A stretch of DNA of 64,000 nucleotides from NCBI RefSeq assembly GCF_026914185.1, contig NC_070574.1:3624501-3688500 (forward strand), given 5' to 3'. Source of the stretch: Puccinia triticina (Eukaryota > Basidiomycota > Pucciniomycetes > Pucciniales > Pucciniaceae). A program made the translations under genes and the position numbers. Under the pieces are notes generated by a model that was given only the letters and a program-made list of their open reading frames with translations, made no database searches and was not told the DNA's origin. Of this stretch, positions 19,555 to 58,061 are shown piece by piece. The first letter of the stretch is position 1. Every line of letters begins with the position of its first letter.

Positions 19555-22500
19555 ATGAACCCAACCGAAGCCAAGCCCGCAACGACAACCACTGCCATCG
19601 CTACTAATGAACATCATCCAGTTTATTCAAGAGAACATCTTGCCAGGCTCGATTCCCATCTGGAGCTCATTAGCGCCTTGACTCATTTGGGTACGTATCT
19701 GATTCAGATTTTCTTGCCTGGGTGTATGCTGGGGCTGATAGTCTTGAATGAACGCATCATACCAGAATCAGTCGAATGTCAAGTTGACCAGTCTCTTTCT
19801 AAGCTCCTATCTTCATCAGATAGGATTGACTCTGCCCTCAATACGATTGGTGAAATCGAACCGATTGTCCAGGACCTGTCAGAAGATGCTGCAGCTTTGC
19901 ACGAAGTGGTAATCGAACGAGCCGAAGTCGCTGAGAGGTTATCAAGCAAGGTTCGTGTGCTCGATTTGGAACAAAGTCGAGTCAAAGATTGTATCGACCG
20001 CGTTCAATCGGCGGCGGAGCTCAAGGATGCATTCAATCAACTTTTTCAAGCAATCGAATATGCTGATTGGGAGGCTGCAACCCGACATGTCCAACGGGCC
20101 AACGCAATCGATCGCGCATTTCTTACCAGTCAATTTGTCGAAGCTGTTGTGGTAAGCCCAAATTTCTGCTATCTATTTTATATATCTTATTCTTTCGGTT
20201 TATTCACTTAGAAATTTGCGTTTTCTCTGGTCTCATTCTTGCAGCCAACAGCCAATATTCCTGAACCGCCAGCTATTGCATTAGAAAACTTGATCATTCA
20301 GTTGACCGAAACCTTCCTCAAGTCTTTCAACGCGGCGGCTCAAGTCAAGGATGAAGCTGCTACAACACGTTTTTTCAAACTTTTCCCACTCCTCGGGCCA
20401 TCTGCATCAGAATCTGGTCTTTCGGCTTATTCCGATTTCGTTCGCACCTTAATTTCTGTTCCCTCATCGATCACTCGACCAACGGACGGAGCCAAACCAG
20501 CGAGCATCGTCATCCAGCTTACTTCAATTGTTGAACAGCTTGCTCTGATCATTGACCAACACCAAGGCGTTGTTGATAAATACTATGGGCCGCGCTCGAT
20601 GGTCACTGTTGCGTTAAAGCTGAACAAAGAACTAGATCGCTTGATGGTGCGATTGCTATCTGCGTGGGAGACCGATCAACAGCTCAACCGTAAGCTTCTA
20701 AGCGTACAACGATACTCCTTCGCGACCCAGAACCAACTTCTTGCTGCAATCAATAACTACGGATCCGTAAACCCTCTCAACTCTCCCGCTGCATTGCACA
20801 GCTCCTTGCGGTCACTAGCTGGCAATGTCCAGAGGACGTATAACCTACCTCAGAGCTCTGTATCAAGTCTGAATTCAACTGCAGTAGTCTCACATGAAGA
20901 AGACACAGAAGATCCTCGAGAAATTGATTTTTTAATCGCTGAACTGGCCGGCATGAGTTCCCGATGGCAAACCTACAGGAGATTCCTATGTGGCAGGTTT
21001 GGCGAATTTAACCTCAATGAAACGCAAAACATACTGGAACGGCCAGATGAACCGCAATCACCTATTTCACCCTCCACTGTTCCGAAAGAACAGCATGCGT
21101 CGCCACCCGCGCATATTAGCAAACAATTTGAGCAACTGGGGCAAACAGAGCTGAGCCAAAAACTGAATGAAAATTTGGAACGTTTCTATCTACCTCTCGA
21201 AGCGTGGTATCTCAGAATCAACATTGAAAAGGCACATTCAGCCGATGAGATGGACCTGAGTGGATCGCCGTATCTTTCCTCCGCCCTAGACGATACGTTT
21301 TATATGGCCAAAAAAGTTATACTCAGGTTGATGAGCGTAGGAAACGTAAAATGTGTTCGGGCTGGTTTACTCAAAATTGAAGAGACAATACAAAGAGATT
21401 TTGGAGAGGTGATGAAGAAAAAATTAGAAGGCGTGAGTGCGAATCTATCTGCTGGAACTACTGTTGGATTTGGAATCAAGACCAGCGAGGAGAAAGAAAA
21501 GAGGGAAAAATCAGTTCGAAATTCGTGTGTCGTGGGTTATCCTCTTTCCATTTGTTTCTAAGACCGATGATCACCAGAAGCCAGTCAAACCGGTACGAGC
21601 TGATGCGTTGAAATTATGTGGTTGTCATATTATTATTTAAATATTTTTTTTGAAAAAAAGGTTTACTTGAATAATCTGAGTATGGCTTCCGAATACGTTG
21701 TTCGGCTGGTCGACGAAGTCACAAATGGTCCCACACTCACCCAAAACTTTTTCGTCCCGGTTGAAATTGACGAAATAAAATCCTGTCTGGCGGAGATGTA
21801 CAGGCTTTCAAAAAAATTAGCAGGAATCAATAAGGTAATTGTAATATATAGTTTTGTCTATTATCGCTTTATTTTTGCATTTCACCGAATCATCCCTCCC
21901 AACATGACATAAATCCAGTATTCTTGCCTCAAAGGTTGATTTCTGATGTATCATAATCGTGATTTCTGTCTTAGAGTGGTCTAGAGCAACTCTTCAACCA
22001 ACTTATACGTCCCAAGATTCGGCCAATCGTATCAGACTGTTATAAGGACGTCACGTATGTATTAGATGATCAATCCTATGCGGAGGCTGAGGTTCAAGAT
22101 CTATTTCGGAAGCGGTTTCAAAAAGCTTGGGAATCTTTAATGGATCCATATCGAGTTCGTACCTCTATTCATCTTGAAAATATGGTTCACTTTATCTCGA
22201 TGTCCAACCATCCAAAGCATCATTGCGATATCCCCTTGCTGATATAAGGCTACCCATGTTATCACAAACAAATGGAAACCAATGAAACTATTTTCCAAAA
22301 AAAGGACTCAATGACCACAGAGAACTTTAAAGAATTAATCGGGATGACAGTGAATCTGATCGTAAGGACGTGGGAGAACATGATCAAGAACCAAAAATTT
22401 AATGAATTAGGATCGATCAAATTCGATAAAGATATTCGAAGCATCTCATCGTTCTTATCTAATCAAACCTCCTTTGGGATCTCGTTGATCAATGAATCGT

Positions 22501-45794: not shown

Positions 45795-46360
45795 AGAAAA
45801 AGCTTTGTTTGTTGGGGTTGAGCTAGAACAACAGCTCCACACGGTGACCTGCATGTCAACTGCTAACAGTTGAGAGAGTTTTTCTTGTAGTGCTAGATAC
45901 TGTGATTGAGCTGATGTTCCATGTTTTTGCACATGTTTTTGCAGTCTGACCCAAGCTGATTGGGCTTGCACTGTGACTAGTCTAAGTGGCCAAGCATGGG
46001 CCCATATCTATGTACCAAGTTGTCAAACTTCCTTCAAATTAAATGACCCTTTGAAATGAACATGAAGGCCCTTTAAAACCCATAACAGAACAAATCACAT
46101 GTTTTGTTCAAACACTTCTAAGCAAAATCTGATTGTAGACACTCTCCTTCTGAGTCAAAAAGTACATAGCTGTACTAGGATGGTTCACCCTATCAACTTT
46201 GCACATGGGAGGGCCATTTGCTTAGGCATTGTATGCTCATGATGACCAAAATATGTCTGAAAGGTTTGTAAATTGGTAAATACTAAATATTTCCTTTGTA
46301 TCCATTTTACTGCTCACCCACTTGGTGTATGCCTGAACTCAGGGCTGCTAGGCCCGCCAC
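45795..46360. other. No gene seen
   Basis: A+T-rich spacer between the 20-bp repeat and the hairpin satellite. Nothing coding or repeated was recognised. Confidence 0.5.
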
Positions 46361-47224
46361 GGAGTGTGCTTTGGCACACTCCTATTATACTACGGAGTGT
46401 GCTTTGGCACACTCCTATTATACTACGGAGTGTGCTTTGGCACACTCCTATTACGGAGTGTGCTTTGGCACACTCCTATTACGGAGTGTGCTTTGGCACA
46501 CTCCTATTACGGAGTGTGCTTTGGCACACTCCTATTACGGAGTGTGCTTTGGCACACTCCTATTACGGAGTGTGCTTTGGCACACTCCTATTACGGAGTG
46601 TGCTTTGGCACACTCCTATTACGGAGTGTGCTTTGGCACACTCCTATTACGGAGTGTGCTTTGGCACACTCCTATTACGGAGTGTGCTTTGGCACACTCC
46701 TATTACGGAGTGTGCTTTGGCACACTCCTATTACGGAGTGTGCTTTGGCACACTCCTATTACGGAGTGTGCTTTGGCACACTCCTATTACGGAGTGTGCT
46801 TTGGCACACTCCTATTACGGAGTGTGCTTTGGCACACTCCTATTACGGAGTGTGCTTTGGCACACTCCTATTACGGAGTGTGCTTTGGCACACTCCTATT
46901 ACGGAGTGTGCTTTGGCACACTCCTATTACGGAGTGTGCTTTGGCACACTCCTATTACGGAGTGTGCTTTGGCACACTCCTATTACGGAGTGTGCTTTGG
47001 CACACTCCTATTACGGAGTGTGCTTTGGCACACTCCTATTACGGAGTGTGCTTTGGCACACTCCTATTACGTAGTGTGCTTTGGCACACTCCTATTACGG
47101 AGTGTGCTTTGGCACACTCCTATTACGTAGTGTGCTTTGGCACACTCCTATTACGGAGTGTGCTTTGGCACACTCCTATTACGGAGTGTGCTTTGGCACA
47201 CTCCTATTACGGAGTGTGCTTTGG
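46361..47224 (+). repeat. 28-bp hairpin satellite, array 2 (30 full units plus a partial one)
   Basis: Two 33-bp units at 46361-46426 carry an extra TATAC-type 5 bp. They are followed by 28 exact 28-bp periods from 46427 to 47210 and a half unit to 47224. Each unit is GGAGTGTGC, TTTG, GCACACTCC, then TATTAC. Only two units deviate (GTAGTGTGC near 47070 and 47126). All three plus frames are open because 28 is not a multiple of 3 and no frame of the unit contains a stop. The predicted 285-329 aa products are artefacts. The right flank 47225-47281 is the inverted copy of 36711-36766. Confidence 0.97.
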
Positions 47225-47284
47225 GATACAGGGTATCCTGGATTTCTTACTGGATATCCCACTCAGGATATCTGGTAGTGGATG

Positions 47285-47600
47285 AAGTGTCAATTGAGGC
47301 CACTCGCCTCAACAACCGGGAGGTTTTCCTCCCGGTCAATCAAGTCTGCTTGCCTCAACAACGGGGATAGTTTCCTCCCGGTCAATCAAGGCTGCTTGCC
47401 TCAACAACCGGGATAGTTTCCTCCCGGTCAATCAAGGCTGCTTGCCTCAATGACCGGTAAGGATCAGCCCCATTGACCGAGGGAGATTTGGGAGGAATAC
47501 CTCCCAGTCGCTGAGGCAAGCGGCCTTGGTCAACCGGAAGGAATTCCTTCCGGTTGTTGAGGCAAGTGGCCTTGATTGACCGGAAGGAAATCCTCCCCTA
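47285..47600. repeat. ~46-bp minisatellite with CCGG-centred inverted words
   Basis: Units of about 46 bp contain CTCAACAACCGGGA, GTTTCCTCCCGGTCAATCAA and GGCTGCTTGC. Three are well conserved, then more diverged and partly inverted copies follow (GGAAGGAATTCCTTCCGG near 47540). The unit combines a CCGGTCAAT half with a GAGGAAA/TTTCCTC half, the same grammar as the repeats at 51570 and 59560. Confidence 0.8.
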
Positions 47601-48716
47601 CTTTGCGCAGCAGAGGAAAACTTTTTGCACAGAGAATTGACTGTATCCTGATTTCAACAACCACTGTGCGCGCAAGTTAAAAATTACTTTGCACACAGAA
47701 AAGAAGGAGTGTGTATTTCCCATCTTTTTTTTTATCAATCCAAACAGGGGGTTTTCCTTACCCTCTTCAAAACATTTCAAAGTTTTTGGAAGCATATTCC
47801 TTGTGATGCAAAAAAATGTATATAAACTATTAATCCCAAAAAGTACTTGACAGGCTCCTGGTCCCCTGGGATCACTGCCCTAGTGATCTCTAACTTGCCA
47901 AAAGTCAATTGGTTGGGTACACAGCCCCTTGAAAATAAAGTTTGAGGGGCGCCACAATGGCTATTGTTTTGAAAAATTTATTTAATTAGGATTTTCTCTG
48001 CAAAATCTGAAAAACTTGTCACACCAAAAAAGTACACTTTTTTCCTGTCCCCAGTTCCTTTTCCTGTCCCCTGTTCCTGTTTCTGGTTGTGTCCCAGTCC
48101 CAGTTCCAGTTCCAGTTCCAGTCCCCATTCCTGTTCCCGTTCCTGTCCCTGTCACTGTTCCTGTCCCAGTTCCAATACATGTCTTTTTCCTGTTGTCCTG
48201 TGTGTTACATGCTTTCAGGCCCCCTCTTCATCTTGTGCAGGGGGCTCTCTAGTTGTGTGTACGTTTTGGCTCCTCAGAGAAGAAATCAAATCATTTAGTC
48301 AGAGCCAAAATAACCAAGACCCACAGTGCCCTAGTCCTCAGACCCAAGCTCCTTGTTCAGCCCCTCCTCCTTGCCTCACAACCTCTCTCTCATCAAGCAA
48401 AAACTCAACAACTTTTTCACAAGTATTTGCGCCCAGGAGGGACTTGGCTAAGTTTGGGAGGGAGACTTTGACTCGCAAGCGGTATGGCAGGGGAAGAGAT
48501 CATGCAACCTGATTGGTGCTGGAGTTATACTTATTGTTTTTGGATAAATCCTTGGACAAACTGAGGCATTGGATGACTTAAATTTATGTGCTTATGCTGC
48601 AATGCAGAAATTTTTTCCTTTGGTTTTTGCCACCCACAGCGGCAATTCATGAAGTCATACGCCTTGCTGTGATTAAGCATAAGCAAGCATCCCACCCTAT
48701 CTGATCACCACCAACT
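47601..48716. other. No gene seen; CCAGTT microsatellite-like tract
   Basis: CCAGTTCCAGTTCC and CCTGTCCCTGTTCC hexamer-like repeats at about 48085-48175 produce a spurious Pro-Val-Pro-Val protein. Otherwise the spacer has no recognised feature. Confidence 0.5.
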
Positions 48717-48899
48717 TGTTGGAATATATGCTTCAAGCTCCATTTGAGGGTCCAAGCTATATGATCTAATGTCCCAAAATCACCAGTAAGACCAACTGTG
48801 TGTTTAGCTCAGTGGTATAAGAGCAGCTCTCATGAACGTAGAAGGTCGTGGGTTCAAATCCCACAACACACAATTCTTTTCACCTGAGTAATTTCAACA
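48717..48899 (+). mobile_element. Solo LTR of a miniature LTR element, containing a tRNA-like sequence
   Basis: It runs from TGTTGGAATATATGC to GTAATTTCAACA (183 bp) with identical 5-bp flanks CAACT at 48712-48716 and 48900-48904. These are LTR hallmarks: TG...CA ends and a 5-bp target duplication. It is about 95% identical to both LTRs of the element at 55044-55612. The tRNA-like part lies at 48798-48872. Confidence 0.9.
48798..48872 (+). ncRNA. tRNA-like sequence inside an LTR (not a normal tRNA gene)
   Basis: The 75-nt segment has an acceptor stem GTGTGTT/AACACAC (7 bp), a D stem GCTC/GAGC, and a T stem GTGGG/CCCAC with TTCAAAT loop. It also has a pol III A box TAGCTCAGTGG and B box GGTTCAAATCC. 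The anticodon stem is poor (GCTCT against GTAGA), and the loop could present TGA or, shifted, CAT, so decoding function is doubtful. It resembles elongator tRNA-Met in AGAAGGTCGTGGGTTC. Two further copies are at 55124-55198 and 55511-55585. Confidence 0.75.
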
Positions 48900-48904
48900 C
48901 AACT

Positions 48905-48939
48905 AACATTGCTGCAGCAATCTTTACCAAGAATCTCAG
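48905..48939. other. Short spacer between the solo LTR and TIR element C
   Basis: Only 35 bp separate the right target duplication of the solo LTR from element C, including the latter's left target duplication ATCTCAG. Confidence 0.9.
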
Positions 48940-49270
48940 CAACGGTGGGCCGCTACGCTACATTTAGTCTGTAGTTCAGCGCAGCGTAGCAGATCTAAAC
49001 TAAAAATGACAGGGTTTTCCTTTAGCGGGCAGTGATTGCCCGCTACCGCTAACAGGCACCCCTTGAAACTACAGGGCCTCTATCGCCGCTATCAGCGCTA
49101 GCAGTGCTATTCAACCGCTAAAAAAGCTGATAGCGCTGTTAGCGCCCGTTAGCATAGCGTAGCGGCCCGTAGCGGGCGCTACAGCTAATGGCAATGTGTC
49201 AGGAACTACGCAACGCTAAACTAGCGGATAGCGCACGCTACGGATAGTTTAGCGTAGCGGCCCACCGTTG
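48940..49270. mobile_element. TIR element C of the CAA(C)/7-bp-TSD family
   Basis: The ends CAACGGTGGGCCGCTACGCT and AGCGTAGCGGCCCACCGTTG are perfect mirrors over at least 20 bp. The flanks ATCTCAG at 48933-48939 and 49271-49277 are identical. The interior is GCTAGC, TAGCGCT and CGCTACAG words. Length is 331 bp, non-coding. Confidence 0.92.
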
Positions 49271-49277
49271 ATCTCAG

Positions 49278-49772
49278 TGTGTGATCAGGGACCCGGGGCC
49301 AAAGTCTTACAAAAACCGTGGCCAACCATCAGCCCTCTCTTCATACAAATATCCCCAAAAAGGATGGCAATGTGCACACATTGTCATGATCAATACATTG
49401 CTATTACATAGGTCTTATGTGGTGTTACCAACAATTATAACCTTGTGATACAGTCATGTAACTGAGATTTAAACTTGTTGTTACTTAGTTAACTGATCAC
49501 ATCCCTCCATACTCATATTGCACATACATCCTGGAAGTGATTTTGGATGATTGTCCAAAATCCCTACTGAGCAACCTGGCTCTACACTGGAATGATCCAA
49601 GTAAGAGAATCTTTAGAGCATGGCAATAAGCACACATTGCCTTCCTTTATGGGGTGGTGCCGGGTGTTTGAGTAAAGTAGAAGCGTTGTTTGAGGAAAGT
49701 AAGAGGTTTCTTTGAGGGAAGTAAGATACATGTAAGAGTTGTGTTAGAGGAATGTTAGATCATGGCAATCTG
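49278..49772. other. No gene seen
   Basis: A+T-rich spacer between elements C and D; it ends with the left target duplication CAATCTG of element D. Confidence 0.5.
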
Positions 49773-50746
49773 CAACACTGCAAGAGCTACACTTCGCTAC
49801 AAAAAGCGGCGCTTTTGCATAGCAAACCGGAAACACACTACTCTGGATCCAGAGTAGCGTTAGCGCTAGCGGAAAATCGCTACTTTGAGCGGTAGCGAAG
49901 CGCCAGAACCGCTACTGCAGTTTTGGCCTGCGCGTAGCAAAGCGCTTTTTTTGCTGCTTCGCTACAGTATAGCGCAGCGGAAAAATTGACGCTTTTTGGC
50001 GCTTTTTGACGCTAATAGCGCTTTTTAGCGCCAAAAGCGTAGCGAACTGTAAACCCCCCGCGCCGCGGACGCTATGGAGTTCACAAACATGTCACCAGAA
50101 CAACAACAGTTCCTTATAGTCCCGCCGTCACCGCCCCTCCTAGCTCAGCAGAGACCCGACCCCTGACTGACTGTCTCTCTGAGCTAGGTAAGTTTCTCTT
50201 GTTTCCATTCTCCTCTTCCCTTCCCTTAAGATCAATTGTATATAGGAGAGACCCAACCCCTGACTGACTGTCTCTCTGAGCTAGTTCCCCATTTGCAATC
50301 AAGCCCGACATTGGTATCAGAAACTAAGGAGATCGGTGTCTCCCCTGTGCCAACGCCATAGCTCAGTGAAGAGCTCCGGCTCTTACACGAACCGGGTCGC
50401 TTTTGTGCCAAAAGCGTAGCGGGCATGTCTGCTTTTTGGTGGAAAATGTCAGGAATAATACACAAACATCAATCCTCCATCATTTTATGATGTGCAGTAT
50501 TGATGTTTGAATGGTGCTATGGTAGCACAGCAAAATCGCTACAGTAGCTTTTTTTCCGCTACTATAGCAAGAATCACAGTGAATTGCCGCTACTCTGCGC
50601 TAAAAAAAGCGCGCTATTTTCTTTAATTTTTTCCCCTTAAAAAATGTAGCAAATAGCAAAGCGCCAAGTCCGCTACAAAAAGCTTAGGGAAGCGAGGCTA
50701 AAACCACTACGCTGCCGCTTTTTGTAGCGTAGCTCTTGCACTGTTG
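49773..50746. mobile_element. TIR element D of the CAA(C)/7-bp-TSD family, composite
   Basis: The left end CAACACTGCAAGAGCTAC pairs with the right end GTAGCTCTTGCACTGTTG (one mismatch). The flanks CAATCTG at 49766-49772 and 50747-50753 are identical. The outer parts are GCTAC/GTAGC-rich, like other members. The middle (about 50060-50400) is a different, retroelement-derived sequence (annotated separately). At 974 bp it is the longest family member in the window; no transposase is readable. Confidence 0.9.
50075..50345 (+). mobile_element. Retroelement LTR/leader fragment with PBS inside TIR element D
   Basis: It contains a ~38-bp segment (GAGACC(C/A)GACCCC-like, then TGACTGACTGTCTCTCTGAG) twice, at about 50150-50187 and 50248-50285. 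The first copy is followed by GGTAAGTTTCTC, a strong splice donor. Downstream, GCCCGACATTGGTATCAGAA looks like an LTR end (CA) followed by the common TTGGTATCAGA primer-binding site complementary to initiator tRNA-Met. Only the leader portion of the retroelement is present. Confidence 0.6.
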
Positions 50747-50753
50747 CAATCTG

Positions 50754-51569
50754 CACTCATTGCCATCCTTTTTGGGGTGGTGAATGTTCCTTTATGATTG
50801 AGTTTTTCCAACTTGAACCAGGATTGTTTCTGCATGAGATTCAAGAGAAACTGTATGACTTGGCTGAAGTCCTGCTCAGCACCGCAGTTTCTCACTGCAA
50901 ACTTGTCAAATTTTTGGCAATCAACCTGAAAAAATTGGAAATGTCTGGTTGCTAAATATGCGTTCATGGAGCGGATGGAGTTTTATCCAGCCAAGTTCTT
51001 AGTGTTTACAGGTGTGTATATCCAAGCAAACTTTCTTTTTTTGCTCCCAAAGCTGACAGTTCTTTATTGGTTGACTGTCTAGATGAGAGTGCCTTCTGCA
51101 ACAAGGATCTGCTCCAATCACTTGCCAGGTCAACAAGGCACCCCCTTGGAGCAACTCCTTGTTAATCAGAACACAGCCCAACTCAGCCTTCTCCCAGAAA
51201 TCTCAATTGAAGGACTGGTGAACCTCACAAAAAACTTTCAGATTTTCACTGGTTTCTGATTCAAGCATTTTTTGGAATTTGACTTGGTGAGCCAATCAGT
51301 TGCCAGTACTGTCAGAATTTTGACTAAATTTGTAAGAGCCGGATGGCTCTTCACTGAAACCGTTGTTGAAGGGGCATGAGGGACCGGGCTGAGGAGCCTA
51401 AAGCTTCTAGTACTAAAAAAATGGCATGCACTCCACCCTGATTTTTGCTTTGCACTCCAGTGTGCAAATATGAACCGGAGTGCCCACAGTAGTCATCAAG
51501 CAGGGCACACCCCACTTGATGACCAGCTAATGTGCAAATCTTCTCAATGAGCAGTACAGACCAGTCATT
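50754..51569. other. No gene seen
   Basis: Spacer with mixed composition. No domain, tandem repeat or terminal repeat was recognised. Degenerate versions of the downstream minisatellite start near 51480. Confidence 0.45.
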
Positions 51570-52215
51570 GAGAGATTTGAGACCCCTAAATGGCTGGTAC
51601 AGATCAGTCTTTGGGAGGTGTGAGACCCCTTGATGGCCGGTCCGACCAGTCATTGGGAGGTGAGAGATCAATGGCTGGCACCAACCGGTCATTGTACTAC
51701 GGAGCCCCCCTGATGACTGGTACCAACCGGCCATTGAGAGATATGAGACCCCTCAATGGCCAGTCCCACCAGTCATTGAGAGGTATGAGACCCCTTGATG
51801 GCTGGTCCGACCAGTCATTGAGAGATATGAGACCCCTTGATGGCCGGTCCGACCAGTCATTGAGAGGTATGAGACCCCTTGATGGCTGGTCCAACCAGTC
51901 ATTGAGAAGTGTGAGACCCCTCAATGGCCGGTCTGACCGGTCATCAGGAGGTGAGAGACCCCTTGATGACTGGTTGGACCGACCATCAAGGGGTAATGTA
52001 CTGTGGAGTCCCCTTGATGACCGGTACAGACCAGCCATTGAGAGGTATGAATCTCCTTGATGCCGGGCTGTTGCGGTCATCAAGAGGCGTTACCTACCTC
52101 ACAGACCGGTCATAAAGAGCTATGACTCCCCTCAATGACCGGCACAGACCAGTCATCGGAGAGGAGGAGTGAATCTGCTCAAAGCCAGTCTGTACCGGTC
52201 ATTGAGAGGTGCGAG
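51570..52215. repeat. ~43-bp minisatellite with GACCGGT-type inverted words
   Basis: About 13 units contain TATGAGACCCCTTGATGGC, CGGTCCGACCAGTCATTGAG and AGGTA. Within each unit ATGGCCGGTC and GACCAGTCAT form an inverted pair around a short spacer. Units at the right are more diverged. Open frames here (SLRGMRPLDGWSDQ-like) are repeat artefacts. Confidence 0.88.
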
Positions 52216-52632
52216 TCCCCCCAATACCACTACAGATTGGCATCAAGACAAGATGGAGACCTCGGGGAGGATGCCTCCCCGGCAAGTTTCCTTGGATCCG
52301 GAACATGTCTGGATGACCCTGACTGGTCATCTTGAGGATTCAAGCTCTCAAGCTGACCTGTAAACACTTGGATGAGTGTGTACAGGCCATCATTGTGTCT
52401 CCCCAGGGGCAGGTCCCTGACAACCAAACGTTTTGGTTTGAAGGATGTCAGGGCCCAGGGTGTGTGAGCTTGGTCGGATACTTAAAGGGCTGGGGGTGGG
52501 GGGAGCTGTTTGTCCCCCCAGGGGATCTGGTTTTGTCCACCCCCTCCCTCACCTGAAGGCCCCCTATTTCATTTGAGTAGGCCCCTTCTTGATTTCAAGA
52601 AACAAAAATTCCAAACCCAAAAAAAACTTTAA
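52216..52632. other. No gene seen
   Basis: GC-balanced spacer ending in the left target duplication AACTTTAA of the MITE at 52633. Confidence 0.45.
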
Positions 52633-53430
52633 GGGGCAGGCTAAATGCACTACCAACTTTTACTACATGTACTCCAAAAGATTGGAGTGGACATTAGTCT
52701 ACTCCAATAATTTTGGAGTGAACATCAGTACAATCCAAAAACATTGGATTAGACCAATGTTCACTCCAAAAATTTGGTAATTTTTGGAGTGGACCACCCG
52801 TGCACTCCAAAAGTCTGGAGTGTACCATGTGCGCCACTCAAAAAATGTTGGAGTGCACAACTTATGCACTCCAATGTTGATCCTGTGCATTCTAAAAAAT
52901 TTTGAATGCACAACTTTGCATCTCATGAATTTGGAGTTCATCAAATAAGATCCAGATAATTTGAAAATGAATTTGTTTGACAAATCAACTAAGAACTAAA
53001 ACAAGAAAAAAATCAAAACATCAAATTATCATGTATGTATAAGGAAACCAAACAGAAAAAATAGACAAGGGATCAAGAAACTTGGGACTCCAAATCCTCA
53101 TATGAACAAGTTCAAGAAACCCTGGAAGGTCTTGGAGGCAGGCCTTGTGTTTAGTATACACAATGCACTCCTATATTGCACTCCATTTCCCAGAGCAAAA
53201 AATAGAAAGAAAAAAGTTGAAAAAGGAGTGCACAATAGTGCAGTCCAAAAAATTAGTAGTGCAAGGATTGGGCACTCCAAAAATTGAACATTTTTTGGAG
53301 TGGCCGTATTTTTACTCCAGTAATTCATGGAGTGAACTGTTGTACACTCCAACATTTTTGGAGTACACAATTTTGCACTCCATGTTTGGAGTACATGTAG
53401 TAAACTTTGGTAGTGTGTTTAGCCTGCCCC
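52633..53430. mobile_element. MITE with GGGGCAGGCTAAATGCAC ends and 8-bp TSD (hAT-like)
   Basis: The left end GGGGCAGGCTAAATGCACTA pairs with TAGTGTGTTTAGCCTGCCCC over about 43 bp (through ACTACATGTACTCC). The flanks AACTTTAA at 52625-52632 and AACTTCAA at 53431-53438 match at 7 of 8. The interior contains many alternating GGAGTG/CACTCC words with TTTTTGGAGT-like repeats. It is the same family as 59223-60348. Confidence 0.85.
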
Positions 53431-53438
53431 AACTTCAA

Positions 53439-55038
53439 ACTCACACAAAACAAGAAAATTTCAACTTTGAACTCACACAACACAAAAAAATTTAAACTTT
53501 GAACTCACACAAAAAAAAACATTTGAACACAATCAAGACAAACAAAAACATAAATTAAACTCACACAGAAACAATCCAAGTTTATTAAAGCCTCTGAATC
53601 ACAAAACAAAAATTCAAGGGTTTCCCTACAAATCTCAAAAAATCACAAAAACAAAATCAAGTGTTTCCCCTCTACAACTTCCAGAAAAAAAACATGAAGG
53701 GTTTTCCCTCTACAAATTCCAAAATCCAAGTTTATTAAATCCACACAAAATCATATCCAGCCGCACTTGTTGCCACGGCTATGTTGTCTCCAGCTCAACT
53801 CAACGCCACAATGCACCGTCTCCGCCGCCTTGGCCATCCGCCAATCGACTTGTGGCAACTCCTGCCAACATTGCTCAACACATCTCTTGACATCAGCTGG
53901 CTTCTGTACCACCGGAATGCAGGCAAGACGTTGCCCTTCAATCAGCCTTGTCTTTGAACCCTACCTAACCACAAGAAGGAAGTACCACCCCACTACCAAG
54001 TTCCACTGGGAAAGTACCAATAGTTTGCGTAGTTTTAATATGGTCAGTTATTTTTTGAAGTCATCTAACTCAGACCCCTTATTCCATGCTGGCAAATTAG
54101 ATGCCAATAGTTTAGGCTCAGTCTTCTGTCTTTCCAACTCCTTCTACCCGGTCCTGGTAAAGCAAGGTTTTAACAATGACTTCTTTCAAAAATACATGAT
54201 TGAATTTTTTTCTCTACCACTTCTGCAGCAAACACGAACTGGAGGGCTGGAAAAGAGGAAGATGAATTGCGCCAGCTTGTCGTTGTTGGGGTTAGGAGCC
54301 AGGGCCCGCTGGTCCGCCATCTCAAAACTATCACCATTTGCGCGCAATTAATTTATGTGATAGGCTATCTGGTCACCCCGAATGCAAGAAAAACACTCAC
54401 TTGAGTTGAACAAAGCTAGAATTTCGACCATCTGATCAGTCCTTTTGAATGTCTCTTTTGCCTCTTTGGCTGCAGGATCGCTTTTCCTCAACAAATTTCC
54501 TAGCCCGCTGGAAACGTCGAACTTGCCTTGGTATCTTCAAGTTTATGAAATTCCTCAGGTCAATCATCCCGTGTTAAATTCAATCATAATGTTGTGTCTT
54601 TGTCTCTGGAACTATGCAAAACTGTCACATCTAACCATTTGGCTCTTCATCAAGTTTGGATCAAAAATAGACAACTTGCAGACAACAATGAGAAAAACAC
54701 TAGAAAAGTAGTAGGAGCAGCCAAGAGGTAATATGGGCAGGTGGTTTGCCTGGAGACAAGTTACAGTCCGCCAAGCTGCACAATGTGAATGAAACATGGA
54801 ACATGTGAGCATCCTCCGCGTATCCATCCCTCTTACATACACAAAATTGGACCTCATTGACTGGGTCATGCCCTCAAACCCCATCCAATCTCCTCCATTG
54901 AAATTCACGGCTGATCCTGTTCTGAAGTCTAACTCATCTACATGTGAAGCACACCAGATCCGTCAAGCAGCTGACATGATCATCAACGCCAAACTCCCGG
55001 TTCAGCCGTCCCTCCATCCTTGCTCACCTTCCCAACCA
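53439..55038. other. Gene-free stretch; unassigned open frames
   Basis: A-rich sequence with CACACAAAACAA words (53440-53600) is followed by an open plus frame at 53767-54351 with no recognisable domain and atypical composition. On the minus strand near 54285-54320 a short run MADQRALAPNPNNDKLAQFIFLF may be transposon-derived but decays at once. I could not support a gene. Confidence 0.4.
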
Positions 55039-55123
55039 AATACTGTTGGAATATATGCTTCAAGCTCCATTTGAGGGGCCAAGCTATATGATCTAATATC
55101 CAAAATCACCAGTAAGACCAACT

Positions 55124-55198
55124 GTGTGTTTAGCTCAGTGGTATAAGAGCAGCTCTCATGAATGTAGAAGGTCGTGGGTTCAAATCCCACAACACACA
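55124..55198 (+). ncRNA. tRNA-like sequence in LTR1
   Basis: Same as the copy at 48798 except for one C to T change in the weak anticodon arm (CATGAATGTAGA). Acceptor, D and T stems are intact, with A box TAGCTCAGTGG and B box GGTTCAAATCC. Confidence 0.75.
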
Positions 55199-55510
55199 AT
55201 TCTTTTCACATGAGTAATTTCAACACATTATCAGTACGGATGCTCTCAGTGAATTGAATTAAAGTTGGCTAAACCCTGTGAATACTTGATATTCATGCTT
55301 CCATATGCATATGCAATATTCAATTTCATAATTGTTATGCATTAATCATTATCTATGATGCATGACAAACATACATGATTTGCATATGCAATATTCATAG
55401 TTTGTTCATGGTGCATGAAGCAAGGGGGTGTGTTGGAATATATGCTTCAAGCTCCATTTGAGGGGCCAAGCTATATGATCTAATATCCAAAATCACCAGT
55501 AAGACCAACT

Positions 55511-55585
55511 GTGTGTTTAGCTCAGTGGTATAAGAGCAGCTCTCATGAATGTAGAAGGTCGTGGGTTCAAATCCCACAACACACA
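55511..55585 (+). ncRNA. tRNA-like sequence in LTR2
   Basis: Identical to the LTR1 copy by eye, including the CATGAATGTAGA variant. It is located 80 bp into LTR2, just as in LTR1. Confidence 0.75.
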
Positions 55586-55617
55586 ATTCTTTTCACATGA
55601 GTAATTTCAACAAATAC

Positions 55618-55990
55618 ACCCACGTTCTCCCCCGCTATGCGCTCTCCTCTCCCACCACCATTTTCTGGGGAAAAAGTGGAAAAAGGTACCAAGTTCAGCC
55701 ATCTCTATGTACAGTGCCTCACACTACGCATGCCTGTTCAACTGGGTCATTGCCCGCAAGATCATCCACCATCCTTTCCCCTCCAACCTCCCAGACGCAA
55801 CGGTGGAGCTTTCTAAACAGGAACATTGAAAATGAACTGTGTCCTCACCCCCAATGGTTCTCAGGACCCTTGGCTCTGCTTGGATGCCCTCACCCTGGGC
55901 AGGTCTCAGGACATTAGCTCTGCTTAGCCGCTGCCATTGGGGAGAGACATGGCTTTGAAGGCAACAGTTTGGCCAATAAGGTCATCCTAA
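55618..55990. other. No gene seen
   Basis: Spacer between the TRIM and TIR element E. It ends in the left target duplication ATCCTAA of element E. Confidence 0.45.
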
Positions 55991-56362
55991 CAACAAAGGG
56001 TAGTTACGCTACGCGTAACGCGTAGATAACGGTAACGTAGCGGAATTTTTGTTGTTATCTACGCGTTACGCGTAACGGCGGTGCTATTACGTTATTGCAC
56101 CACATTAAGCCGTTTTTTTTATGGTAGTTGCCTTATCCGGGTGCGCGGAGCCCCTGAGAACCAGCAAAAAATTAGGCTAAAGAAGCCTTAAATGGTCCGT
56201 TATCGCGTTATCCGGGGGAAACGCGATAAGGCCCGTTACGTTACGCGCGGGGCCTAAAATGACCCCGTTACTAGTAAAGTAACTGGGGTCCCCGGATAAC
56301 GGGGGTAGTTACGTTACCAAAATTGCGCAGATAACCCAACGTAACAGAACTACCCTTTGTTG
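55991..56362. mobile_element. TIR element E, GTAACG-rich subfamily, 7-bp TSD
   Basis: The left end CAACAAAGGGTAGTTACG pairs with the right end GTTCTACCCTTTGTTG-type mirror (CAACAAAGGGTAGTT in both). The flanks ATCCTAA at 55984-55990 and 56363-56369 are identical. The interior is GTTACGCGTAACG, CGTTATCCGG and GATAACGG words in both directions. It is closest to element F at 9908. Confidence 0.92.
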
Positions 56363-56369
56363 ATCCTAA

Positions 56370-58061
56370 GATTGGGTCTTGAGAAAGTGACCTTTCCTTT
56401 ATTATTCTATTCTTTCACCCTTTTTTCATGTGTCTAGGTTTACCACCACCAATTTCTCATCTTATAATATATGCACGCCTGGTTAGTTGTTAAAGATGTT
56501 GCTTGAGAAAATTCCTGTTTTTGAAGGTGAGCCAAGCAAGTTTATCAATAATTATTTTTTGATTGCTTCTTTTTATGTCATCATGATGTTTTTTTTTTTC
56601 AGGCAAAAATTTCATTGAATCAACATGATATAGGCTACTTTGGTATATACTTTAACAAGATATCAATCCATTCGGGTTCACCAGTCTAAATGCTGATTCC
56701 TTTGATCATTTCGCCCCCTACACAGACAGCGATTATGAGAACAATGTCTAGCTTTTTTGATACCCTCCTCCGCTGCATATACAAGGCAACTTTGCCAACA
56801 ACGGTCGCGAGGTCTGGGCTTCCGACACCGCCAGCGGGCTCTTCCATCACAACCTCCAGCATCCCAAGCCTTCTGACCGTCATTGAAAGGCCTCCAAGAA
56901 GAAACTTGGAAGGTCAGTATCTGTCCCCAACTGTCTGTCAAGGTGCGCCCACGGTCTGGCCTGCTTGTTGGCGTACTTCAGCCCAGCGGGGAACAAGATA
57001 CAAAGACCTGGTGCGAATTTGGTAGATGGCGCCGGCGGCGAGAGTCTCCTGTCTCAACAGCCCTCTGCCCAACAGGAACTTTGCGCTCGCCTTTCAGGCC
57101 AGAAATGTCAACCAGACCGGCTTTTGGGTCTCAGTATGTCATTCATTCATCTACCTTGCGCCTTGCACTCTATCTTCCCCCTCACGCTGATCAGGTCATG
57201 AAGGCCTGGATGTCCCAACCTCCACTCCTCCTTGTCCTCCTTCACCCTCCGGTTAATGACCTGTAAGCTCCTCTCCTGTCTTGCCAACACATATACAACA
57301 ACCCACTCATCTGAGCACTGCTTCCCATGTGTGCACTCAGACAAGCTGGATATATACAGCCCCAAGGCCAAGCTCCTTGTCCCCCTCAAACATCTTGCCT
57401 TGACCACTCCCCACTGTCACAGTCCAGCATCCCACAAGCTCCAACCTACAGGTTTCCTTTGCTACCACCACGGGCAACATCTAAATTTGGACCTGAGCCC
57501 TCCTGGCCCTTGCATATAATTTTGTAGAAACTTGTGCTCTGGACGTTTTAAATTGTAATCCCACTATTCTTTTTTTTCTTATTTATTTCAGTGGGGGCTT
57601 TATGGAAACTTTCCAGAGTATTGGTTCCTCTTTTTGACTCATTGCATGTATGGTATATGCTGTCTTTTTTTTGATGAACTTGGAAATCATAACTGGATTT
57701 TTGGCTCATGAAAATTTATATTCTCATTGATTCTCACAAGTATTGGTTGAAAAAATAAAACTTCTATCTGAGGATGATCTAAAGAAACTAAAGCTAACTA
57801 ATGGAGGGGCTAAATTGAAAGAGGGATAAGTGGGCTGTTGTGTTGGGCTTCAAACTTACAGCGGCGTAGCCGCCTTGGCCTCTAGTAATTAATATATAAA
57901 CTCAAACAAACCACAAACTCTGTACTGAAAAAAAACTCAAATTTTTTGAACTTAAGGAACACAAATTTCAAACTTTTTATTTCTTCTGCCTGCAATTTCA
58001 ATGAAATGCAGCATGAACCCATGAAGTCAGTTTCTGTGAAACTGTGGTTTTAATAAACTTG
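56370..58061. other. No supported gene
   Basis: 56690-57270 has GC-balanced sequence with overlapping short open frames on both strands, which may be a gene relic; reading the minus strand there gives several stops and no domain I recognise. The rest is A+T-rich spacer, including TTTATTTCTTCTGCCTGCAA near 57977. Confidence 0.4.

Follow-up and report, generated by a model that had tools for sequence, protein, structure and literature searches.

Small transposons with CAC...GTG ends insert preferentially into tRNA-like sequences in the genome of the rust fungus Puccinia triticina, among them a segment carried by the long terminal repeats (LTRs) of a terminal-repeat retrotransposon in miniature (TRIM). 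This TRIM occurs, as a complete element and as a solo LTR, in the stretch of 64,000 nucleotides (nt) analysed here and called the window (assembly GCF_026914185.1, contig NC_070574.1, positions 3,624,501 to 3,688,500 of the forward strand). By itself the TRIM is ordinary, since elements of its kind have been published as Helenus (Kojima 2024, PMC10886601), and the new part is the tRNA-seeking behaviour of the CAC...GTG elements, which lie outside the window. The preference is a statistical result, obtained in one genome for 60 sites of two transposon families. The observations as a whole are probably best explained by a Helenus-type life cycle of the TRIM, together with the use of tRNA-like sequences as preferred landing sites by the CAC...GTG elements.

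Insertions in the A box of the LTR

The genome that was searched comprises 122.8 Mb in 18 contigs. Many copies of the LTR located outside the window are broken at one and the same place by elements with inverted repeats, which are 112, 335, 346 and 1351 bp long and differ in sequence as well as in size. The insertion point lies between TTTAGCTCA and TCAGTGG, and the duplicated triplet TCA corresponds to tRNA nt 12–14, in the A box. The left breakpoints of partial LTRs, counted with omission of stretches cut by the end of a locus, concentrate at position 94 and the right ones at position 92, with 10 at each. A list of insertions with CAC terminal inverted repeats (TIRs), compiled by hand and including three for which one side only was observed, contains 16 cases in the LTR family, all of them at LTR positions 69–115 and 11 of them at a single base. 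At this common base of the A box nine different TIR 14-mers are found, which by eye represent four or five families, and loci L007, L019, L042, L047, L054, L064, L066, L067 and L068 carry different CAC...GTG transposons there. At two of these loci, L019 and L066, the small element interrupts just one of the two LTRs of a copy, and it must thus have arrived after retrotransposition. Left out of the list were the rearranged stretches at C1:4775053/4775487, as well as an insertion of another type (CAGCGG..., with an 8-bp overlap), which lies in the tRNA-like part at LTR positions 127–134 (C11:3228836/3229489).

Genome-wide target sites of two families

For the 112-bp family, 40 of 41 near-full-length places were analysed together with their flanks (40 of 71 candidates were scored). 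The second family, found by its TIR, is represented by 20 copies, 16 of them 816–831 bp long and four longer; these are 20 of the 22 end pairs matched by eye among 76 ends, the other two pairs being located in LTRs of the TRIM family (L020 and L043). Exact 3-bp target-site duplications (TSDs) flank 32 of the 40 sites of the 112-bp family and 19 of the 20 sites of the second, together 51 of 60, in agreement with the CAC...GTG termini and 3-bp TSDs that define EnSpm/CACTA transposons, although similarity or the TIR served to find the copies, so that the ends themselves were selected for.

Each site was scored by the best pair of A box and B box on either strand of the joined flanks. At a threshold of 1.7, which was not fixed beforehand, 27 of 40 and 10 of 20 sites of the two families score as tRNA-like (37/60), compared with 5 of 1000 background windows (taken from the same set of fetched loci, which overlap in part), none of 16 TRIM insertion sites and none of the 60 sites when reversed. 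Lowering the threshold to 1.6 raises these counts to 33 of 40 and 17 of 20 sites, against 31/1000 background windows, 1/16 TRIM sites and 3/60 reversed sites. Cloverleaf scoring gives a weaker result in the same direction (12/40 against 4/2000 at a score of 17). Four of the 40 sites of the 112-bp family lie inside the TRIM LTR family that was the source of the query, and 23 of the other 36 reach 1.7. By similarity of the target sequence the 60 sites fall into 23 groups, with four near-identical pairs of sites that are probably duplicates; the best member scores at least 1.7 in 16 of the 23 groups, and among the 11 single-member groups 8 reach this value.

The hotspot could reflect a preference of the transposons for a short DNA motif rather than recognition of genes of the type transcribed by RNA polymerase III (pol III). 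Among the exact duplications, TCA or its complement is the most frequent, with 14 of 32 in the 112-bp family and 11 of 19 in the second. A single offset, 7 bases inside the A box, accounts for 15 of the 40 sites of the 112-bp family, and 12 of the 20 sites of the second family are positioned between −12 and +7 of the A-box start. However, sites scoring at least 1.7 are spread over offsets from −41 to +51 relative to the A-box start, some of them close to the B box and others before the start of the tRNA-like sequence, the targets form 23 different groups, and reversed sites do not score. A short motif is thus a rather unlikely explanation, but one to be kept in mind. The landing preference fits recognition of tRNA-like sequences as pol III-type genes, and on balance we lean towards the view that several small families of EnSpm/CACTA type are targeted to such genes, placing their 3-bp duplication around the start and the A box of tRNA-like sequences, with the Helenus LTRs serving as harmless landing pads that would spare the real tRNA genes.

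Relationship of the inserting transposons to known families

A description of EnSpm families from Puccinia, with related families also in P. triticina (Kojima 2025, PMC12730594), reports the same CAC..GTG ends and the same 3-bp TSDs as found for the inserting transposons; unlike those families, the small elements described here could not be linked to a transposase. The word tRNA does not appear in the main text of that paper, nor do tRNA and Helenus appear in the main text of a paper on transposons of rust genomes (PMC12210899). No earlier report of CACTA-type or rust transposons in tRNA genes was found among open-licence PMC papers, a coverage outside which Repbase Reports and subscription journals lie.

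The closest parallel in target choice is the Dada superfamily, which, according to PMC3706591 and PMC8869645, targets small RNA genes including tRNA genes, in some cases at nt 8–13 (TAGCTC), which is also within the A box. In the same papers, Dada elements are described with TSDs of 6–7 bp and, in the U6 and U1 groups, without TIRs. In contrast, the transposons inserting in the TRIM have CAC...GTG inverted repeats, 3-bp TSDs and a commonest site, TCA, at nt 12–14, and thus differ from Dada in the length of the duplication. If targeting is real, a CACTA-type group directed to tRNA genes would be a case independent of Dada, and such targeting could help to explain how these transposons are tolerated in a transposon-rich genome. 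If it makes use of assembled pol III factors, each insertion would be a natural record of the occupancy of an LTR promoter, and the promoter claim made for Helenus could then be checked from genome sequence alone.

No autonomous partner of the small elements was found at the loci inspected, which were a lead to KDZ transposases and three loci of EnSpm/Plavaka type. Matches to PF02992 and PF18759 are present in the genome; at the EnSpm/Plavaka-type loci (L109–L111), no matching TSD was found among the best CAC...GTG end pairs. A KDZ transposase was considered as the partner of the 112-bp family, as two loci have a TIR at a distance of about 3.67 kb from a KDZ match. This lead was dropped because the DNA shows a whole small element inserted in a repeat common to both loci and not the end of a KDZ transposon; the insertion site in the KDZ-bearing repeat is not clearly tRNA-like (score 1.47). 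A repeat of about 9 kb with KDZ matches, 98.6% identical between L112 and L113, carries a CAC...GTG element with the TSD TAA at the same point in both. The elements of about 831 bp contain stop-free stretches of about 200 amino acids on either strand, which were judged by eye to be non-coding. Near the right end of an 831-bp element, L114 shows a subterminal T-arm-like stretch with a match to the B box, GGGGTTCGAATCCCC, which looks like a captured fragment of a tRNA gene.

The TRIM in the window and its relation to Helenus

The complete element consists of a 182-bp LTR, an internal region of 205 bp and a second 182-bp LTR (569 bp in all), with the two LTRs 100% identical. The LTRs of both copies start with TG and end with CA, and exact 5-bp TSDs flank the complete element (AATAC) as well as the solo LTR (CAACT). 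The coordinates, the LTR pair, the termini and both duplications agree with the preliminary description of this DNA. The features, in order along the two copies, are as follows.

55039–55043, unstranded, TSD AATAC, left
55044–55225, + strand, 5' LTR, 182 bp, TG...CA
55124–55198, + strand, tRNA-like segment of the 5' LTR (RF00005, 51.1 bits; ARAGORN; acceptor 7/7, T stem 5/5, anticodon stem broken)
55131–55141, + strand, A box of the 5' LTR, TAGCTCAGTGG (sequence)
55177–55187, + strand, B box of the 5' LTR, GGTTCAAATCC (sequence)
55203–55206, + strand, TTTT of the 5' LTR, possible weak pol III terminator (sequence)
55226–55430, + strand, internal region of 205 bp, which leaves no room for a long open reading frame (ORF)
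55228–55239, + strand, candidate primer-binding site (PBS), 11/12 pairs with the anticodon arm of yeast tRNA-Ile
55422–55430, + strand, polypurine tract AAGGGGGTG, adjoining the 3' LTR (sequence)
55431–55612, + strand, 3' LTR, same sequence as the 5' LTR
55511–55585, + strand, tRNA-like segment of the 3' LTR (ARAGORN; Rfam, 51.1 bits)
55613–55617, unstranded, TSD AATAC, right
48712–48716, unstranded, TSD CAACT, left of the solo LTR
48717–48899, + strand, solo LTR, 183 bp
48798–48872, + strand, tRNA-like segment of the solo LTR (RF00005, 51.4 bits)
48900–48904, unstranded, TSD CAACT, right of the solo LTR

Each of the three LTRs in the window contains a tRNA-like segment of 75 nt, found both by ARAGORN, which lists three tRNA genes there, and by the Rfam covariance model, with scores well above the gathering score of 29 bits. 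The acceptor, D and T stems had been described as intact, with A and B boxes, and this holds: in the 5' LTR all 7 acceptor pairs and all 5 T-stem pairs form according to a script, and the D stem is paired as judged by eye. In the Rfam alignment the anticodon stem is unpaired, which makes a working tRNA unlikely, and a function as a tRNA was rejected for that reason. The anticodon position reads TGA in the same alignment, in disagreement with the ARAGORN call of Phe-GAA. A search of window positions 48000–56500 with Rfam gave no match to 5S rRNA up to an E value of 1, tRNA being listed there.

The element had been presented as a TRIM whose LTR holds a tRNA-like gene, comparable to the plant TRIM Cassandra. 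Anatomy and the RF00005 matches support the presence of such a gene; novelty was lost, since the same features define Helenus, and a TRIM with a tRNA-bearing LTR is already known in kind. Helenus elements are TRIMs with a tRNA-derived LTR that is presumed to provide a pol III promoter. They were described in 2024 from animals, plants and fungi, and 113 of the families belong to Pucciniales, P. triticina included (PMC10886601); the laboratory mushroom Coprinopsis cinerea is also among the species listed there with Helenus. They share with the window element a length below 1000 bp, a pair of LTRs, a tRNA-like segment with A and B boxes in the LTR, and a polypurine tract, together with a PBS that in the window element is a candidate. 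Fungal Helenus elements have 5-bp TSDs and a PBS mostly complementary to the anticodon loop of a tRNA, and those of Pucciniales combine many families, a Copia-type PBS, 5-bp TSDs and solo LTRs (PMC10886601). By its 569 bp with two LTRs, its tRNA-derived LTR sequence and its 5-bp TSD, the window element fits this definition, and among the features compared no anatomical difference was found. Table 2 of PMC10886601 lists four Helenus families of P. triticina with a tRNA-like part predicted as Ser-TGA, which matches the TGA at the anticodon position here, and the window element may be one of these four. Named Helenus families of P. triticina are Helenus-2, -9, -11 and -11B. Cassandra, as summarised in PMC10886601, also carries a pol III-type gene inside the LTR, which is 5S rRNA in a plant host, as opposed to the tRNA-like segment in a fungal host. 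The accessible part of the Helenus description does not mention transposons inserted in the tRNA-like part, and a literature search for follow-ups naming Helenus and TRIMp3 found only the same paper (PMC10886601).

Other tRNA-like sequences in the genome deserve brief mention. L139 and L140 are further examples with a TGA anticodon and a preceding T, unlike the window element, and L140 has a second B-box-like stretch just downstream. Among eight fetched tRNA matches only L141 (Asp-GTC, then TTTCTTTTT) looks like an ordinary nuclear tRNA gene, too few for a comparison of terminators with real tRNA genes, which was dropped. Pairing of the acceptor stem across tRNA-like families (7 pairs in 14 of 16 rows) was likewise abandoned as evidence of selection because the script itself required at least 6 of 7 pairs and thus selected pairing.

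The TRIM family across the genome

The LTR query gave at least 40 matches in the genome (40 of 210 first-look candidates were scored) and the internal-region query at least 42 (40 of 56 scored). The fetched loci contain 94 distinct LTR stretches, 46 of them of full length, and five complete elements of the LTR-internal-LTR type, of which four have exact 5-bp TSDs and the fifth belongs to a tandem array; the LTR pair is identical in two of the five, the window element and one on C9. Twelve of the 22 other full LTRs have exact TSDs, and seven adjoin partial internal sequence. Without these seven there remain 15 solo LTRs, 12 of which carry an exact 5-bp TSD. A lack of paired LTRs and 5-bp duplications among the copies, which would have refuted the preliminary description, is not what the family shows.

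Among the 46 full LTRs the tRNA part has a mean diversity of 0.0304, compared with 0.0277 for the part upstream of it and 0.0175 for the part downstream, and 143 of 182 circular shifts are at or below the observed difference. These values are indistinguishable, and faster decay of the tRNA part than of the remaining LTR, which would have spoken against the preliminary description, is neither confirmed nor refuted. The sample leans to young copies because it was taken from the best-scoring matches.

Two kinds of rearrangement were noticed in the family. A tandem array of the form LTR-internal-LTR-internal-LTR, with a common middle LTR and one incomplete outer LTR, is found at L004/L006/L055 (C2:3012499-3013414). 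Copies or halves of the TRIM that are inverted and close together or fused occur at L012/L024 (C10:3314171-3314701), L030/L058, L044 and L060.

Transcription, priming and life cycle

Transcription by pol III from the LTR is plausible, as judged from the sequence, because the LTR has an A box, a B box and TTTT, and transposons that favour tRNA-like sequences insert at this site. Pol III would start at or near position 81 of the 5' LTR, read past the weak TTTT of that LTR into the 205-bp internal region, and terminate at the TTTT behind the tRNA-like segment in the 3' LTR. The terminal redundancy R would then be the tRNA-like sequence itself. Four T form a weak pol III stop signal in fungi, and read-through at this point is possible for that reason. 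The RNA would then be copied by borrowed Copia-type enzymes from a cellular tRNA or half-tRNA primer, and the copy integrated by Copia-type enzymes with a 5-bp duplication. CAC...GTG transposons, with their 3-bp duplications, prefer the tRNA-like sequences of the TRIM and of other repeats in this genome as landing sites.

As to the primer, the candidate PBS forms 11 of 12 pairs, with G-U counted, with the anticodon arm of yeast tRNA-Ile, and we treat this as a lead. The sole mismatch is opposite A34, which is inosine in mature tRNA-Ile and would pair with C. The suggestion that the element might prime itself by its own tRNA-like 3' end was rejected. No more than 7 consecutive pairs form between the PBS region and the tRNA-like segment, a value equalled or exceeded in 260 of 300 shuffles, and Kojima likewise found no self-priming in Helenus (PMC10886601). 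The tRNA-like end of the element would accordingly not serve as its primer.

Several results weigh against the proposed combination of a pol III-driven Helenus cycle and tRNA-directed insertion. Some of the target sites are not tRNA-like, for example those at L088 and L105, as well as those of the copies in the KDZ-bearing repeat. Among the 46 full LTRs, conservation of the tRNA part does not exceed that of the remaining LTR. This outcome neither supports nor refutes a promoter, because it would also be expected of copies that derive from a master element and are not under selection where they lie. Free RNA folding of 77-nt pieces is not better than that of shuffled sequences (z −0.94, −0.80 and −0.80), and the case for the tRNA-like segment thus rests on the covariance-model score and the boxes and not on fold energy. 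A host tRNA-Ile pattern had no match in the genome, and no autonomous Copia element with the internal sequence of the TRIM was found among the 42 TRIM-type matches.

Alternatively, pol II might transcribe these LTRs as it does ordinary ones, and the tRNA-like segment would be a captured passenger that has lost its role as a promoter. The lack of excess conservation and the decayed anticodon arm are both consistent with this, and the TTTT in the 5' LTR should hinder read-through by pol III. Against it stand the A box, the B box and the TTTT present in the window copies, ATTCTTTT, which follows the tRNA-like segment and is kept in 45 of the 46 full LTRs, and the sequence around both the A and the B box, which Kojima reports as kept across Helenus families (PMC10886601). 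A passenger segment appears improbable in comparison with pol III transcription of the Helenus type. That the elements are tRNA-derived short interspersed elements merely looking LTR-flanked can be dismissed, since their tRNA-like part, lack of genes and multiple copies are accompanied by two identical LTRs with TG...CA ends, 5-bp TSDs, a polypurine tract and solo LTRs with TSDs.

Other features of the window

Positions 52681–52770 are hairpin-like and weakly resemble several Rfam microRNA families, all below the gathering score; this may be a palindromic miniature inverted-repeat transposable element. A tandem repeat array at 46273–47285 yields two overlapping repetitive ORFs. A fragment of the gene for COG4, of the conserved oligomeric Golgi complex, is located at 20239–21561, with its best match in Melampsora americana (42% identical).

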